Below are positions 5,933 through 32,244 of a DNA stretch of 33,824 nt, piece by piece. The position numbers and the translations under genes were made by a program. The notes beneath the pieces were generated by a model. That model searched no databases, was not told the origin of the DNA, and was given only the letters and a program-made list of their open reading frames with translations. Source of the DNA: Verrucomicrobiota bacterium (GTDB lineage: Bacteria > Verrucomicrobiota > Verrucomicrobiia > Methylacidiphilales > Verrucolacustridaceae); contig RHAF01000003.1 of the NCBI GenBank assembly GCA_010028775.1, positions 1 to 33,824 on the forward strand, in the 5' to 3' direction. Each line of letters starts with the position of its first letter. Position 1 is the first letter of the stretch.

Positions 5933-6685
5933 TTATCGGCGCACGGTCCCGGAGAGACTCTGTCCCAACCTTTTCTGCCCGTCCCAACGGGCCCAGCCGG
6001 ATGCCTTCCAGAGAAAGATCAGGGCAACAATCCCAAGAATCGATCGGATCAGCTGGCCAAACTGGGACCCAAAAAGAATTTTCTTTTGCCGATCCATCAC
6101 CGACTGCCGCTCCTCGTTAAGCCTGCTCTCCTGGGCCTTCACCTCATCTTTTAGGTTTTGCAGGAACGCCGTTAGATCCACCGGATTTTTTTTGGCGTTG
6201 GCGGTGTTGTACCGAATGACCATTTTTTGTTGCTCTGCCTCGGGAAGATTGAGGGTGGTTTCCTCGACCAGTTTCACCCTCTTCAATTGCTCCTCCATTT
6301 GAACATTCAAGCTGTAGGCGCTGAGTCGGAATAATCGCGCAGCGGCATTCATGGAGACCGGGATGATCGCCACGTAAAACACAGCAAGACAGAGCGGGGC
6401 CCAGGACAAGCCGGCAAGGACAACCCTCTCCAATTTCACTCGAAAGTAACGGGGATGGATAAAAAACAAGGCCAACCCAAGAACAATCAAGGGGATCCGA
6501 TCGGTCATGGAAGCGCAAAACCTCATTTCCGAGGATGGGTCACGGAGTTGAAGGCTGAAAAGAGCCGCAATACTTTCCATGAAGAAAAAAGCCACCAAGG
6601 CACCGCCCACAATACGGAATATTTGGATCCCGGCTAAAACCGAGCGCTCGGCCGGAGTGGATGTGCTTACCCTCCCAGATTCCAT
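5933..6685 (-). CDS. Membrane protein resembling cyanobacterial HpsJ
   Basis: Two N-terminal TM segments, a third TM, a long charged/coiled stretch (MEEQLKRVKLVEETTLNLPEAEQQKMVIRYN...), then a C-terminal TM. Start inferred at MESGRVSTSTPAERSVLAG, since the ORF-track extension to 6895 overlaps the divergent amylase. Confidence 0.5.
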   Translation of the reverse strand: MESGRVSTSTPAERSVLAGIQIFRIVGGALVAFFFMESIAALFSLQLRDPSSEMRFCASMTDRIPLIVLGLALFFIHPRYFRVKLERVVLAGLSWAPLCLAVFYVAIIPVSMNAAARLFRLSAYSLNVQMEEQLKRVKLVEETTLNLPEAEQQKMVIRYNTANAKKNPVDLTAFLQNLKDEVKAQESRLNEERQSVMDRQKKILFGSQFGQLIRSILGIVALIFLWKASGWARWDGQKRLGQSLSGTVRR

Positions 6686-6773
6686 CGGAAGATTCTGCCC
6701 TAAATGGAATATGGAAGGCAATCCACCGGAATCCCTTCTCGCCCTGCTGTGCATGGGGGATAGTTTATTCTCC

Positions 6774-8687
6774 ATGGCAAACCTGCCTCGCTCCGGATTC
6801 ATAACTGGTCTTTCCAGCCTCATTCCCGCCCTCTTTTTCGCAACCATCTCCACCACTTCGGCCGGGGAAACCCCGAAAGCCGAGTCCCCGGACATAACCT
6901 GGCCTCAACACGCCATTTGGTATCAGATTTTCCCCGAACGCTTCCGAAACGGGGACCCCGCGAACGACCCCACCGCGGAGTACAGCCAGGTCCCCGACAT
7001 CGCGAGAAGTAGCTGGTCCATCATGCCCTGGACCGGAGAGTGGTATGCCATGGAGAAATGGGAAAAGCCGCTGGGGCCGGATGCCTATGCCTCGAGCGGT
7101 CACCGCCGCTACGGGGGGGATTTTCAAGGAATCATGGACAAACTCGACTACCTCAAGGAACTGGGGATCACCGCTCTCTACCTCAACCCGATTTTTGAAT
7201 CCCCCTCCCTGCACAAATATGACGCACGCTCCTACCACCATGCCGACCCTCACTTTGGACCCGATCCGGCAGGAGACAAAACGATGACGTCCGGTGAATC
7301 GGCCGATCCGGCAACCTGGAAATGGACCGCGGCCGACAAACTATTCCTTGAATTGGTCCGCCAGGCCCATCTTCGCGGAATCCGCGTGATCCTCGATGGG
7401 GTGTTCAACCACTGCTCCACCGAATTCTTCGCCTTTGCGGACCTTCGTGAAAAACAGGAAAAGTCGGCATACAAAGACTGGTTTGATGTGAAGAAATTCG
7501 ATGACCCCGCCACCCCCGATAAAAACGAATTTGAATACGCCGGATGGTGGGGGGTGAAAGGCATGCCCGAATTCACCGATATCCCGGGTGAAAACGGACG
7601 TAAAACACTGCCTCCCGGCGTCCGGGACTATCTATTCGCCGTGACCAAGCGGTGGATGGATCCAAACAACGATGGCGATCCCTCGGATGGAATCGACGGA
7701 TGGCGGCTGGATGTGGCCAATGAAGTGGGAACCGGGTTTTGGTCCGACTGGAATGAATTCGTAAAAAAGATCAACCCGTCCGCCTACACCACTCCGGAAA
7801 TATGGGTGGAAAACGCTCCGGATTTCGTCAAGGAGGGCAAGTTTGACGGGGTGATGAACTATTACTCCTTCAGTATGCCCGTCAAAGGAGGGCTGATTGA
7901 CGGCACCCTGCCCATCCGCGCATTCGCCCAGATGATCGAGGATCGGCGTAAAAGATTCCCTCCCGGGCAACAAACCGTTCTGCAAAACCTTTTCGACTCC
8001 CATGACACGGCCCGAATGGCCTCCATGATCGTCAATCGTGACCGGCCCTACTACTCATCCGCCGAGAGTTTTTCCTACGATGCCGATGTTCATGCCGGGA
8101 GCCATGACAGACCGTACCTGATCCGCAAACCAACCGACCCGGAGCGGGGTCTGCAAAGAATGTTGGTCCTGTTCCAGATGACTTATCCTGGAGCCCCATA
8201 CCTCTACTACGGAGTGGAGGCGGGGATGTGGGGAGGAGATGACCCGGATGATCGGCAACCCATGGTCTGGCCGGACCTGCATTTTGAGCCCCAGAAAATC
8301 AGCCCGGGGGGGCAACCAACAAGAAACGATGACCTTAATTTTGACGCCAACCTGCACAACTACTATCGCGATGCCATTGCCCTGCGAAAGAAATATCCGG
8401 CACTGGTGGATGGGGCGATGCAGTTGATCGGCGCAGACAACACCTCCCGCATGTTTGGCTTTGCCCGAAGCTGCGGAACAGAGACCATGGTGGCCGTGTT
8501 CAACCGGTCCGAGACTGTTCAGACCTTTCGCTTTAACTTCGGCACCACGGACGGCAGTTCCCCGAATCCCCTTGTCCCCGTCTTTGTATCCCAAGGGAAA
8601 ATCAGTGATGCTTTGGTCAAACAGGGACCAGGCAAAGTGGAGATCACCCTGCCGGGTTGGACAGGAGCACTCCTGCGCTTGGACTAG
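6774..8687 (+). CDS. Secreted alpha-amylase family GH13 protein (cyclomaltodextrinase/neopullulanase-like)
   Basis: Signal-like [62 protein letters not shown] (nucleophile Asp); [12 protein letters not shown] (acid/base Glu); [10 protein letters not shown] (third Asp). Confidence 0.95.
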
Positions 8688-28600: not shown

Positions 28601-29293
28601 ATGCGGTGGTTTACACTACTCCTTGCCTTGTGCTCCATGGGTTTGCCCCTTCAGGCCCATGACGTGGTTTTGATTTCCGGTGGTCCGGCCCTTCGCTCCT
28701 TTGAGAAGTTTAAGAAGGCCTCCCACGACAAGTACTGGGGCAACTTCATCGACTCCGCATTGACCCGTGCCGCCGAACTGAAAAAAGAACAACCCCGAGA
28801 GGACCAGATCGTCTGGCTTGTTTTTCGGCCCAGCTACACCAGTCGGTCCTCGGAGGACCAGCAGGACTACCTTAAAATCATCGAGGAACGCGGAGCTATG
28901 GTCGGCCTCACGCCGATCTACTTCGACAACAAGGACCAGCTCTTCACCCTCCTGCGGCGGGACGGATCCAGGGATAAACCAAAAATCTCCCGACTCGAGT
29001 ATTTCGGACACTCCAACAAAAAGTGCTGGATGTTCGACTATAGCAACCGTGTCGATGGTGGGGCGCTGGAACCCCTCGTTGTCCACGTCGACGATCTCGA
29101 AAAGATTTCCGGGTCGAGCTTCACCCCCAAAGCCGAATGCGTCAGTTATGGTTGTCATTCGGGCGAGGAATTTTCCCAGCGCTGGAGAATGGTGGTCGGA
29201 CGCCCCATGGTGGGGGCGGTCGGTAAAACCGACTACAGCGACGGCGGCATGCCCAAACTTTCCAACGGAAAAGAGGGATCATGGGTCTATTGA
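28601..29293 (+). CDS. Secreted protein of unknown function with a caspase-like (clan CD) His/Cys layout
   Basis: Signal peptide MRWFTLLLALCSMGLPLQA; alternating strand/helix pattern; ISRLEYFGHSNKKCWMFDY (candidate His) and AECVSYGCHSGEEF (candidate Cys). CDS call is solid; function is inferred. Confidence 0.8.
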   Translation: MRWFTLLLALCSMGLPLQAHDVVLISGGPALRSFEKFKKASHDKYWGNFIDSALTRAAELKKEQPREDQIVWLVFRPSYTSRSSEDQQDYLKIIEERGAMVGLTPIYFDNKDQLFTLLRRDGSRDKPKISRLEYFGHSNKKCWMFDYSNRVDGGALEPLVVHVDDLEKISGSSFTPKAECVSYGCHSGEEFSQRWRMVVGRPMVGAVGKTDYSDGGMPKLSNGKEGSWVY

Positions 29294-29880
29294 TTCCCAT
29301 TGTCCTTGTTTTAATCTCCCCTTCCCTGGGATGGGCTCCGCCGCTTCCCTTGCGCACCTCACCGACCACCAGCCAGACAGAGACCCCTCCACCCGCCTCG
29401 GAAGAAGAACCCATTACGGCTACCGATGAGGAAATCCGCAAACCCCTGGAAGAAAAAGTGGCTCGAGCCACTCTCCCTGCGGCCCATACTCCGGCCAAAC
29501 ATGGCGAGACCGATGGGGAATCTTGGGTCGCCCAACGGACGATGGTGGAAGATTACTGCGGATGGGGGTGGATCAAAAAAGAAAAGGAATCCTGGCGGCA
29601 GGCCCGATGGATCGCCCTGGAGGGAACCCGGGAAGTCTGTCCGCTCCCCCACACCTATCTGCCCCGACCTGAAGACGACAAGAATTACCAATACAGGTTC
29701 TATGGCTCCTTTGCCCCCTACCGTGCATATGAACCTCAAGCCGATGTTTGGGTCGATGTATTCATCCTCAAGGGGTTTATGAGCCTGGGCCCGGCCAAGG
29801 AGGAGATACGCCGTAGCCCGCCAGCCCAGGCCAGCTCTGGTGTCAATCGCTTCGCCGAGAGGGGCGCCAACGTCAGGTAG
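29281..29880 (+). CDS. Secreted protein of unknown function, overlapping the upstream gene
   Basis: Signal-like [19 protein letters not shown], low-complexity linker, Trp/Tyr-rich domain [20 protein letters not shown]...[25 protein letters not shown]. Overlaps the preceding ORF by 13 nt. Confidence 0.65.
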
Positions 29881-29917
29881 CCTTGACCTCGGTCGACCTC
29901 TCGGGCATCCTTACCAC

Positions 29918-30082
29918 ATGCGCGAACAGATTATCTTGGAATGCACGGAAGCTCGGGCAGAGGGCAAACCCCCATCCCGCTACTTCGGCACCAAAAATAA
30001 AAAGCTCCAAAAAGACCGGATTGAGCTGAAAAAGTTCAATCCCTTCCTCAAGCGCTACACCGTCCACCGCGAGAAAAAATAA
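29918..30082 (+). CDS. rpmG: 50S ribosomal protein L33 (Cys-free zinc-independent form)
   Basis: [54 protein letters not shown] is an L33 sequence. True start is ATG 29918, inside ORF-track entry 29840-30082. Confidence 0.95.
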
Positions 30083-30097: not shown

Positions 30098-31366
30098 TTA
30101 AGGTGGCCCCAACTTCATCTCCACAGGAACCAGGACTGCGTCCTGCATTCCGTGGATCAGTTTTTTGTCCGTGGGACATAACGTGGCTAAGGCGCCCTTC
30201 ATCTCCACTCGATCCCCCGTGACGAGATAGTACGGACAAAGCCTCAACCGCCATTTCCCCTCCTCCACCTCCCCTTGCTCTTCATTCCAAACCGGGTGAA
30301 CCACCGAAGCAGGGTGAGCAAATCTTTGCAAAAGATTCGGTTGTTGAGCCCACTCGCGCAATGCGCGTCGCAACTCCTCAACCCACCGTTCCTTGGGATG
30401 ATCACTTCCGATCAAAACCCCCCGGGATCCCCAAGCGCGAGGGGAGAAACCACTGGTCTTAATGACCAAATCCCTGGCCCTCTGACTAAATCCCTCAAGC
30501 TCGCTCCAGGATTGGATTCCCAACTCGGGCAGGACTCCCTCGGGCGGTAGCTCCATCGGTCGCAACGGCCAAGCCCTTGGAACCAATGCTCTCAGTTCTT
30601 TAAAGAACCCTTCGCCGAGTTCTTTTTTCCACCACTCTTCCAGTGGTTTGATCCAAAAGATGGCCCACCACAACTTCTCTTCGAGATAGGCCTTGGGGGG
30701 CGCCTCCATCTTCACCCGCGAACTCCAACTGGAGCGAATTTCCCCAAGATTCATCCAGTCAAACATCTCAAAGAAGCGGAAGACTTTCTTTTCCCCTAGA
30801 CGATGGCCTTCCGCGGTTTTTACCCGACCCGATCCCAGCAACCACTCCCACTCCGGGCGATACTCCGACGCCTCCTGCGAGACCAGCACTTCCCCGGATT
30901 CACCCAGCACCTCGGTTACCATCCCCCTCATCCCGGTCTTTCCACCCACAACATCATACCCCAATCCTGAGTACTGCTCTTGGAGCCAAGCCGATAATCC
31001 AATACCCCCAGGGACTGAATCAATCTCTGTCAGGGCCCAGCCTTCGTTTGTACGAATCAAATCCGGCCGTAGCACCCTGGGAGTCGCCCCACGCTGCTCA
31101 CGGCCCAAGCGAACCACCTCCTCCGGCTTTCCCCCGTCGAGCCATTCCGAAATCCAGCCCGGTCCTTCCCCTTTGAAGCTGGCGCGATACATGCGGTCGG
31201 CAGCTTGCAGAAAGGAATGGAGACGCCTACCCAACCCATCCAAAAAACGCAGATCTTCGCCCCCGAGGACCAAGGGACGATCCGACCAACGCCAGCTTTT
31301 CCCCTGAAAGAGTCCCCCCGAGGGTAGATTCCTGGTGAGACTATCAACCCAATCCGAACTCTTCAT
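30098..31366 (-). CDS. Unknown protein, possible ATP-grasp-like enzyme
   Basis: ORF starts at ATG 31366 in ATGA overlap with the pdxA stop. PRVLRPDLIRTNEGWALTEIDSVPGGIGLSAWLQEQY and RDLVIKTSGFSPRAWGSRGVLIGSD resemble substrate/ATP-binding segments of permuted ATP-grasp proteins. Confidence 0.6.
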   Translation of the reverse strand: MKSSDWVDSLTRNLPSGGLFQGKSWRWSDRPLVLGGEDLRFLDGLGRRLHSFLQAADRMYRASFKGEGPGWISEWLDGGKPEEVVRLGREQRGATPRVLRPDLIRTNEGWALTEIDSVPGGIGLSAWLQEQYSGLGYDVVGGKTGMRGMVTEVLGESGEVLVSQEASEYRPEWEWLLGSGRVKTAEGHRLGEKKVFRFFEMFDWMNLGEIRSSWSSRVKMEAPPKAYLEEKLWWAIFWIKPLEEWWKKELGEGFFKELRALVPRAWPLRPMELPPEGVLPELGIQSWSELEGFSQRARDLVIKTSGFSPRAWGSRGVLIGSDHPKERWVEELRRALREWAQQPNLLQRFAHPASVVHPVWNEEQGEVEEGKWRLRLCPYYLVTGDRVEMKGALATLCPTDKKLIHGMQDAVLVPVEMKLGPP

Positions 31367-32244
31367 TTCGCAGGATTCTTGGCCAAGTGGTGGGCCAGGC
31401 GAATCGCGGCGATAAGACTGTCCGGTTTGGCCGATCCACGACCGGCGATGGAGAAAGCCGTTCCATGGTCCGGCGCACACCTCACCACGGGTAGACCGAC
31501 AGTCACATTCACGGTGGATTCAAAGTCCAGAAGTTTGGCCGGGATCAGACCTTGATCATGATAAAGTGCAACAACTCCATCGAATTCCCCTCGATAGGCC
31601 CGCCAGAAAACCGTGTCGGGGGATTCCGGTCCCGAGATGCGTAGCTTCGTTCTCTTCCTCAACTCCCTCACCGCCGGCATTACGATTTTCCTCTCCTCAA
31701 GGCCAAAAGCCCCGTTCTCCCCCGCATGCGGGTTCAGGCCACAAACGGCAATTCTGGGTTTTTTACATCCCATCCGCTTCAGCACACCGACCAAATGGAC
31801 GCCGGAGCGAATGATATCTTTTTGATTCAGCCTTAGGACCGCCTGTCGCAACGAAAGATGGGTGCTAACCAAGGCCACCCGCAAACGGGGACCGATCATC
31901 ATCATCGTGACCTCGTCCGCTTTCTTGCCGAAGGCTTTCGCATAGAACTCCGTCTGCCCAGGAAATGGGAAGCCGACACGGCGCAGCCATTCCTTGGATA
32001 CCGGACCATTCACCACCGCTGCCCACTGCTTCTGCTTGAGAAACCGGACGCTTTCCAGCAGGGATGTTTTTGCCGCGCGGGAACCGTCCAAAGTCGGTCT
32101 CCCGGGCCGAACCTTTCCTGTATTTCCGATGACCTCAACGGGAATAGAACCCGCTAGAACGCGAAGCGCCTTTCGAACAAGTTCCGGTCCCACACCGGCG
32201 GGCTCACCCCTGGTGACCCCTACAACCAACGGACCTCTTTTCAC
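31363..32244 (-). CDS. pdxA: 4-hydroxythreonine-4-phosphate dehydrogenase
   Basis: VVGVTRGEPAGVGPELVRKAL, VNGPVSKEWL, FPGQTEFYAKAFG, VCGLNPHAGENGAFGLEE, GVVALYHDQGLIPAKLL, NVTVGLPVVRCAPDHGTAFSIAGRG. GTG start at 32244 overlapping the surA-like stop. Confidence 0.97.
   Translation of the reverse strand: MKRGPLVVGVTRGEPAGVGPELVRKALRVLAGSIPVEVIGNTGKVRPGRPTLDGSRAAKTSLLESVRFLKQKQWAAVVNGPVSKEWLRRVGFPFPGQTEFYAKAFGKKADEVTMMMIGPRLRVALVSTHLSLRQAVLRLNQKDIIRSGVHLVGVLKRMGCKKPRIAVCGLNPHAGENGAFGLEERKIVMPAVRELRKRTKLRISGPESPDTVFWRAYRGEFDGVVALYHDQGLIPAKLLDFESTVNVTVGLPVVRCAPDHGTAFSIAGRGSAKPDSLIAAIRLAHHLAKNPAK

Follow-up and report, generated by a model that had tools for sequence, protein, structure and literature searches.

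A candidate exported caspase-like protein and a putative partner encoded by an overlapping gene in the class Verrucomicrobiia

Clan CD of the cysteine peptidases counts eight families in MEROPS (PMC12445089). The order of structural elements in caspases and the clan has been described (PMC4357240), a glycine adjoins the catalytic histidine (PMC4357240, PMC12445089), and the catalytic pair falls at His133 and Cys179 in PmC11, at His91 and Cys140 in MARTX-CPD (PMC4357240), and at His161 and Cys207 in YabG, a sporulation protease proposed for the clan (PMC12445089). Caspase-like domains have also been described as toxin tips (Tox-Caspase; PMC3482391). The sheet of the clan CD fold has the strand order 2-1-3-4. 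One aquatic survey detected no metacaspase genes among its Verrucomicrobia (PMC4933709).

Here, we describe two overlapping genes in a 33,824-nucleotide stretch of DNA from a Verrucomicrobiota bacterium (the window; contig RHAF01000003.1). The initial annotation, made from the letters alone, had reported two ORFs overlapping by 13 nt, each with a signal peptide, and had quoted the ORF1 peptides DVVLISGGP, QIVWLVFRPSY, ISRLEYFGHSN and AECVSYGCHSGEEF. All four peptides are present, the ORFs lie where they were placed, and by inspection both leaders resemble Sec signal peptides (MRWFTLLLALCSMGLPLQA in ORF1, 19 residues in ORF2), so that both proteins are predicted to be exported. The features of the locus are as follows.

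28601..29293, + strand: ORF1, candidate caspase-like exported protein, 230 aa
28601..28657, + strand: signal-peptide-like leader of ORF1 (aa 1-19, ending LQA; by inspection); the next residue is where mature homologues begin aligning
29281..29293, + strand: overlap of the ORF1 end and the ORF2 start, 13 nt; the -13 offset is repeated across most of the genus
29281..29880, + strand: ORF2, candidate exported partner, 199 aa, with an all-beta, OB-like model
29536..29790, + strand: conserved core of ORF2, R..GWGW...W...P...D...Y..G...Y.P...VF...G

Both ORFs are real genes. The search covered 40 relatives from 12 genera; each ORF has homologues in 34 of these relatives, and every genus is represented. 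Against same-genus relatives dN/dS is 0.04-0.11 for ORF1 and 0.05-0.09 for ORF2, values given only for pairs with an estimable dS, since many pairs have a saturated dS. Among 46 ORF1-ORF2 pairs, 32 have an estimated ORF2 start that falls within the end of ORF1, mostly by an offset of -13 or -4 nt, and the remaining pairs have gaps of 4-74 nt. These overlaps are consistent with translational coupling. A divergently oriented isocitrate dehydrogenase gene lies upstream of ORF1, and the gene for ribosomal protein L33 follows ORF2 on the same strand. The mechanical L33 ORF begins at a GTG (29840) within ORF2 (29840-30082), but its true start is likely the ATG at 29919, because the Pfam L33 match begins at residue 29. 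Beside L33, positions 30098-31480 of the minus strand hold a 460-aa ORF, an unannotated candidate gene for which neither Pfam nor NCBIfam gave a hit at E <= 1.

The AlphaFold2 model of ORF1 (pLDDT 91.8, pTM 0.91) proceeds as strand-helix-strand, strand-His, a small beta section, helix, strand-Cys, helix and strand. In mature numbering, strand 110-116 leads to His118 and is followed by strands 123-125 and 141-143, helix 144-149, and strand 155-163 leading to Cys166. As in clan CD, two successive core strands carry the His and the Cys at their C-terminal ends, the small beta section precedes helix 3, and an aromatic residue comes after the next strand, where the clan carries one on L5 near the S1 pocket. 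In a Foldseek search of a viral predicted-structure library, caspases and metacaspases took ranks 1-7 and 9 (eight of the best nine), with E-values of 0.0025-0.058 and TM-scores of 0.37-0.45. Rossmann dehydrogenases headed the PDB list, in which a metacaspase ranked 36th, and no match reached E <= 0.001 in either the PDB or the viral library. Single matches are each weak, but the clustering of one fold at the top of the viral-library list is hard to explain by chance. We infer from the model and these matches that ORF1 probably adopts a caspase fold, as the initial annotation had supposed; the hits from the PDB were mainly Rossmann folds of a generic kind, none of them significant.

Conservation was counted over 129 distinct ORF1-like sequences, and the residues of most interest are these.

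28724..28729, + strand: His42-Asp43, 129/129, following the first core strand and shared with the RHS tips described below; predicted role in the substrate pocket
29006..29011, + strand: Gly136-His137, His in 129/129 and Gly in 128/129; candidate catalytic His, to which strand 110-116 leads (mature numbering)
29153..29155, + strand: Cys185, 129/129; candidate nucleophile, to which strand 155-163 leads (mature numbering)
29225..29236, + strand: Lys209-Thr210-Asp211-Tyr212, Thr in 129/129 and Tyr or Phe in 129/129; after the next core strand, at the position of the conserved clan CD aromatic (L5; PMC4357240)

Invariant residues include His137, Cys185, His42, Asp43, Phe49, Arg82, Tyr147, Gly205 and Thr210. 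The putative catalytic His precedes the putative catalytic Cys, as in clan CD, and the two are separated by 46-49 residues across the family, a spacing similar to those of PmC11, MARTX-CPD and YabG. The glycine that adjoins the histidine is likewise kept, appearing as GHG in the RHS tips. The neighbors of the cysteine vary, His186 being Tyr in 12 of the 129 sequences and Glu189 differing in 13, a pattern that would be expected if only the dyad were catalytic. Thus, of the earlier reading of a His and a Cys followed by Glu, the His-Cys pair stands, whereas the Glu is no functional signature. Tyr212 lies just past strand 184-188 (mature numbering), and Asp211 is replaced in 15 sequences, an Akkermansia-type Arg being among the replacements.

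Sequence searches placed neither protein in a named family, in keeping with the first reading of the locus: nothing exceeded background for ORF1 or ORF2 against Pfam, NCBIfam, PHROGs and PADLOC. ORF1 had no match above the curated cut-off to Pfam Peptidase_C14, C25, C11, CHAT or DUF4347, and when 20 family members were compared with Pfam clan CD, the sole match was to DUF4347 (E 0.08, in two of them). By these profiles ORF1 is outside the five families. DUF4347 is essentially missing from Verrucomicrobiia, and no profile of it could be built. Searching PDB sequences with ORF1 and with its profile returned nothing meaningful.

Profile-profile comparison was most productive with C25. An alignment of the diverse ORF1 family together with its RHS tips scored 26.7 against C25 in hhalign and paired the His and the Cys of the two families, compared with at most 19.4 for 15 unrelated neighbor-gene controls. 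The hhalign probability of this alignment is about 6%, and the ORF1 family alone had a raw score of 20.7, with one control higher at 23.3; the C25 result is suggestive only. As a positive control, accepted clan CD families were compared with each other and scored 14-24, apart from C14 with CHAT at 42, so that the 26.7 of ORF1 with C25 exceeds five of the six accepted pairs. Alignments of ORF1 with C14, C11 and CHAT gave background scores. Because accepted clan CD families mostly miss each other too, these negatives are uninformative, and the lack of a strong score is compatible with membership in the clan.

ORF1 therefore shares features with several described families but matches none of them. 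It resembles C14 (caspases and metacaspases) in the order of elements in the model, in having His before Cys and Gly before His, and in its top viral-library matches, and its GCHSG recalls the DxCHSG motif that C14 proteins have in this class. It differs in that the stand-alone family has GH[SA] rather than GHG, has no Pfam Peptidase_C14 match, is exported and single-domain, and aligns with C14 at background level. The gingipains (C25) are exported, as ORF1 is predicted to be, and among the clan CD sets tried C25 aligned best by profile, its catalytic His and Cys falling in register with those of ORF1; however, ORF1 lacks a Pfam Peptidase_C25 match, is shorter than the 374-position C25 model, and the alignment by itself is not significant. 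YabG, as described, is also small and bacterial, has a His-Cys dyad with a spacing of 46 residues and does not resemble other families in sequence (PMC12445089), but its role in sporulation sets it apart from ORF1. In our view, ORF1 represents a new family that belongs to clan CD or borders on it, and its putative partner is conserved too.

Of 286 Verrucomicrobiia genomes examined with a profile, 152 have ORF1, and in a phylum-wide draw it was present in 62 of 388 genomes, all within that class. The named loci belong to Verrucomicrobiota of Methylacidiphilales, Chthoniobacterales and Verrucomicrobiales types, and the gene is mostly single-copy and part of the core of several orders of Verrucomicrobiia. 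ORF2, like ORF1, counts as a core gene across a large share of the class. Both ORF1 and ORF2 occur in the gut species Akkermansia muciniphila (taken as G132; NC_010655.1, 2,664,102 bp) and in the 0.9-Mb symbiont Xiphinematobacter (taken as G054; CP012665, 915,884 bp; PMC4607532), with the ORF1 His and Cys intact in each. Two records titled Candidatus Paceibacterota and Akkermansia muciniphila (L095 and L120) carry loci that by sequence fit the genus or order of the window, and their titles seem mislabelled.

Genome by genome, both genes are present in 150 of the 286, ORF1 only in 2 (G120, G174), ORF2 only in 4 (G041, G126, G236, G263) and neither in 130. The predicted co-occurrence in other genomes is thus borne out, 150 with both against 6 with one, and the few percent of discordance is about as large as incomplete genomes would be expected to produce. 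ORF2 comes directly after ORF1 wherever contigs allow, and this adjacency is maintained throughout the order despite changing flanks. The more telling points for a partnership are this adjacency and the retention of both genes in a 0.9-Mb genome: G062 keeps both with clear matches, the ORF2 match in G054 being weaker (E 2.7e-8). The one recurrent flank is a lipoprotein gene with an Amidase_2 (cell-wall amidase) domain, which precedes ORF1 in some Verrucomicrobiales (L160:4010-4819; also L136, L148, L151, L154, L159, L161, L163, L167 and L168) and makes a cell-wall link possible.

Taken together, we think it somewhat more probable than not that ORF1 is an uncatalogued exported cysteine peptidase with a caspase fold, similar to clan CD, that cleaves a few envelope proteins, and that ORF2 is its co-translated, OB-like periplasmic partner. 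The modeled fold, the conserved dyad and the co-occurrence likewise support the original proposal of a secreted caspase-like hydrolase with a partner. After Sec export, ORF1 would work in the periplasm or at the outer membrane, where it would probably cleave a limited set of envelope proteins by means of the His137-Cys185 dyad. The P1 residue would probably be recognized by His42-Asp43 and the Thr210-Asp211-Tyr212 loop, with a basic residue favored. This preference is speculative; it is suggested by analogy between Asp95 on helix 1 of TbMCA2 (PMC4357240) and Asp43, which is invariant and lies close to the first strand and the first helix. ORF2 most likely binds ORF1, either holding it at the envelope or controlling it.

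ORF2 was modeled with lower confidence scores (pLDDT 77.8, pTM 0.62) as an all-beta core with a disordered Pro-rich N terminus. Its structural matches are mostly OB folds (E 0.08-1.4), the fourth being Tannerella potempin D (E 0.21), a protease inhibitor, and they hint at the fold only, not at function. Staphostatins and potempins are inhibitors of their proteases, and ORF2 shares with the OB-fold potempins its small size, its predicted export, its all-beta character and a gene beside a putative protease. A finer version of our preferred reading, compatible with it, is that ORF2 is a dedicated, co-translated inhibitor that keeps ORF1 latent. The overlapping genes and their order-wide adjacency fit such a role, but the potempin match is not significant and is equalled by SSB, RPA and other OB folds; moreover, in other orders the genes are unlinked and the ORF2 homologues are for the most part lipoproteins, as judged by eye from the lipobox, with genes at other genomic loci, and in the four near-complete genomes that have only ORF2, no ORF1 was detected even by a relaxed search. 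We regard a dedicated inhibitor as a tentative idea, with perhaps one chance in a few. Identity of ORF2 with LptE, raised by one homologue beside holA (L284), was rejected given the all-beta model and the lack of an LptE Pfam match, and is also disfavored by the other neighbors (DnaN, an integrase and ThiF). One locus has a tandem ORF2 pair after a single ORF1 (L121:5679-6290 and 6431-6943), and one genome has two ORF2 matches (G162).

It is rather unlikely that ORF1 is no peptidase at all, its Rossmann- or caspase-like scaffold serving instead as a binding or structural protein of the envelope or as an enzyme of another type that depends on the Cys, for instance a transpeptidase or an amidase. 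The Rossmann dehydrogenases that lead the PDB list are in line with this, the many invariant positions outside the dyad could point to another active site, and the Amidase_2 gene often just upstream in Verrucomicrobiales hints at a cell-wall context. Against it, caspases rather than other folds head the viral-library list, and the His and Cys end consecutive core strands at a clan CD spacing and are kept in the RHS tips.

Equally doubtful is that ORF1 and ORF2 are functionally unrelated, with their co-occurrence reflecting common inheritance within clades and their overlap reflecting compaction. The genes are unlinked in many families and orders, yet co-occurring there, and because the presence of both follows orders, independent co-occurrence events are possibly few and may account for the 150/2/4/130 distribution. 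This account sits poorly with an adjacency that holds in several families while the flanks change and with the retention of both genes in the 0.9-Mb genome G062.

Distant homologues of ORF1 occur as the C-terminal tips of RHS proteins, at the following positions.

L056:676-1755: RHS protein whose C-terminal tip is an ORF1 homologue, 26% identical
L194:1577-2644: RHS protein from the genus of A. muciniphila, with an ORF1 homologue as C-terminal domain
L195:1324-1653: a further RHS protein from that genus, with an ORF1-homologous tip that looks like a fragment

The tips keep the HD, R, GHG and GC motifs. Each is followed by a small gene, and those after L194 and L195 encode homologous putative membrane proteins that are putative immunity proteins. 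Through the tips of L056 and L194, ORF1 is related in kind to the Tox-Caspase domains (PMC3482391), a point in favor of the caspase-like reading, but it differs as a stand-alone exported core protein of 230 aa; the RHS layout is confined to its distant homologues, and ORF1, which lacks RHS repeats, looks like a housekeeping protein. That ORF1 and ORF2 form an exported toxin and its immunity protein, directed at competitors, is suggested by these tips and the small membrane proteins next to them but is very improbable, since ORF1 is a mostly single-copy core gene under strong purifying selection that is kept in the intracellular symbiont Xiphinematobacter, found no relatives when phage, plasmid and viral-contig collections were searched with it, and is unlinked from ORF2 in many orders, and since ORF2 is not among the RHS-associated membrane proteins.

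Returning to the envelope peptidase with its OB-like partner, we put at about even the chance of a broader reading, in which ORF1 would be a ninth clan CD family, confined to Verrucomicrobiia as far as searched, that joins an OB-like lipoprotein in a module for proteolysis in the envelope; the module would be core in several orders and retained both in A. muciniphila and in an obligate symbiont, and its peptidase domain would also have served as the toxin tip of RHS proteins. ORF1, whose caspase-like product has diverged beyond the reach of family models, is a core gene of several orders of Verrucomicrobiia. The locus provides two concrete, unannotated and co-occurring genes, with candidate catalytic residues and a candidate partner named, that are testable in a culturable organism, and the RHS-tip homologues connect an exported protein of housekeeping type with polymorphic toxins.
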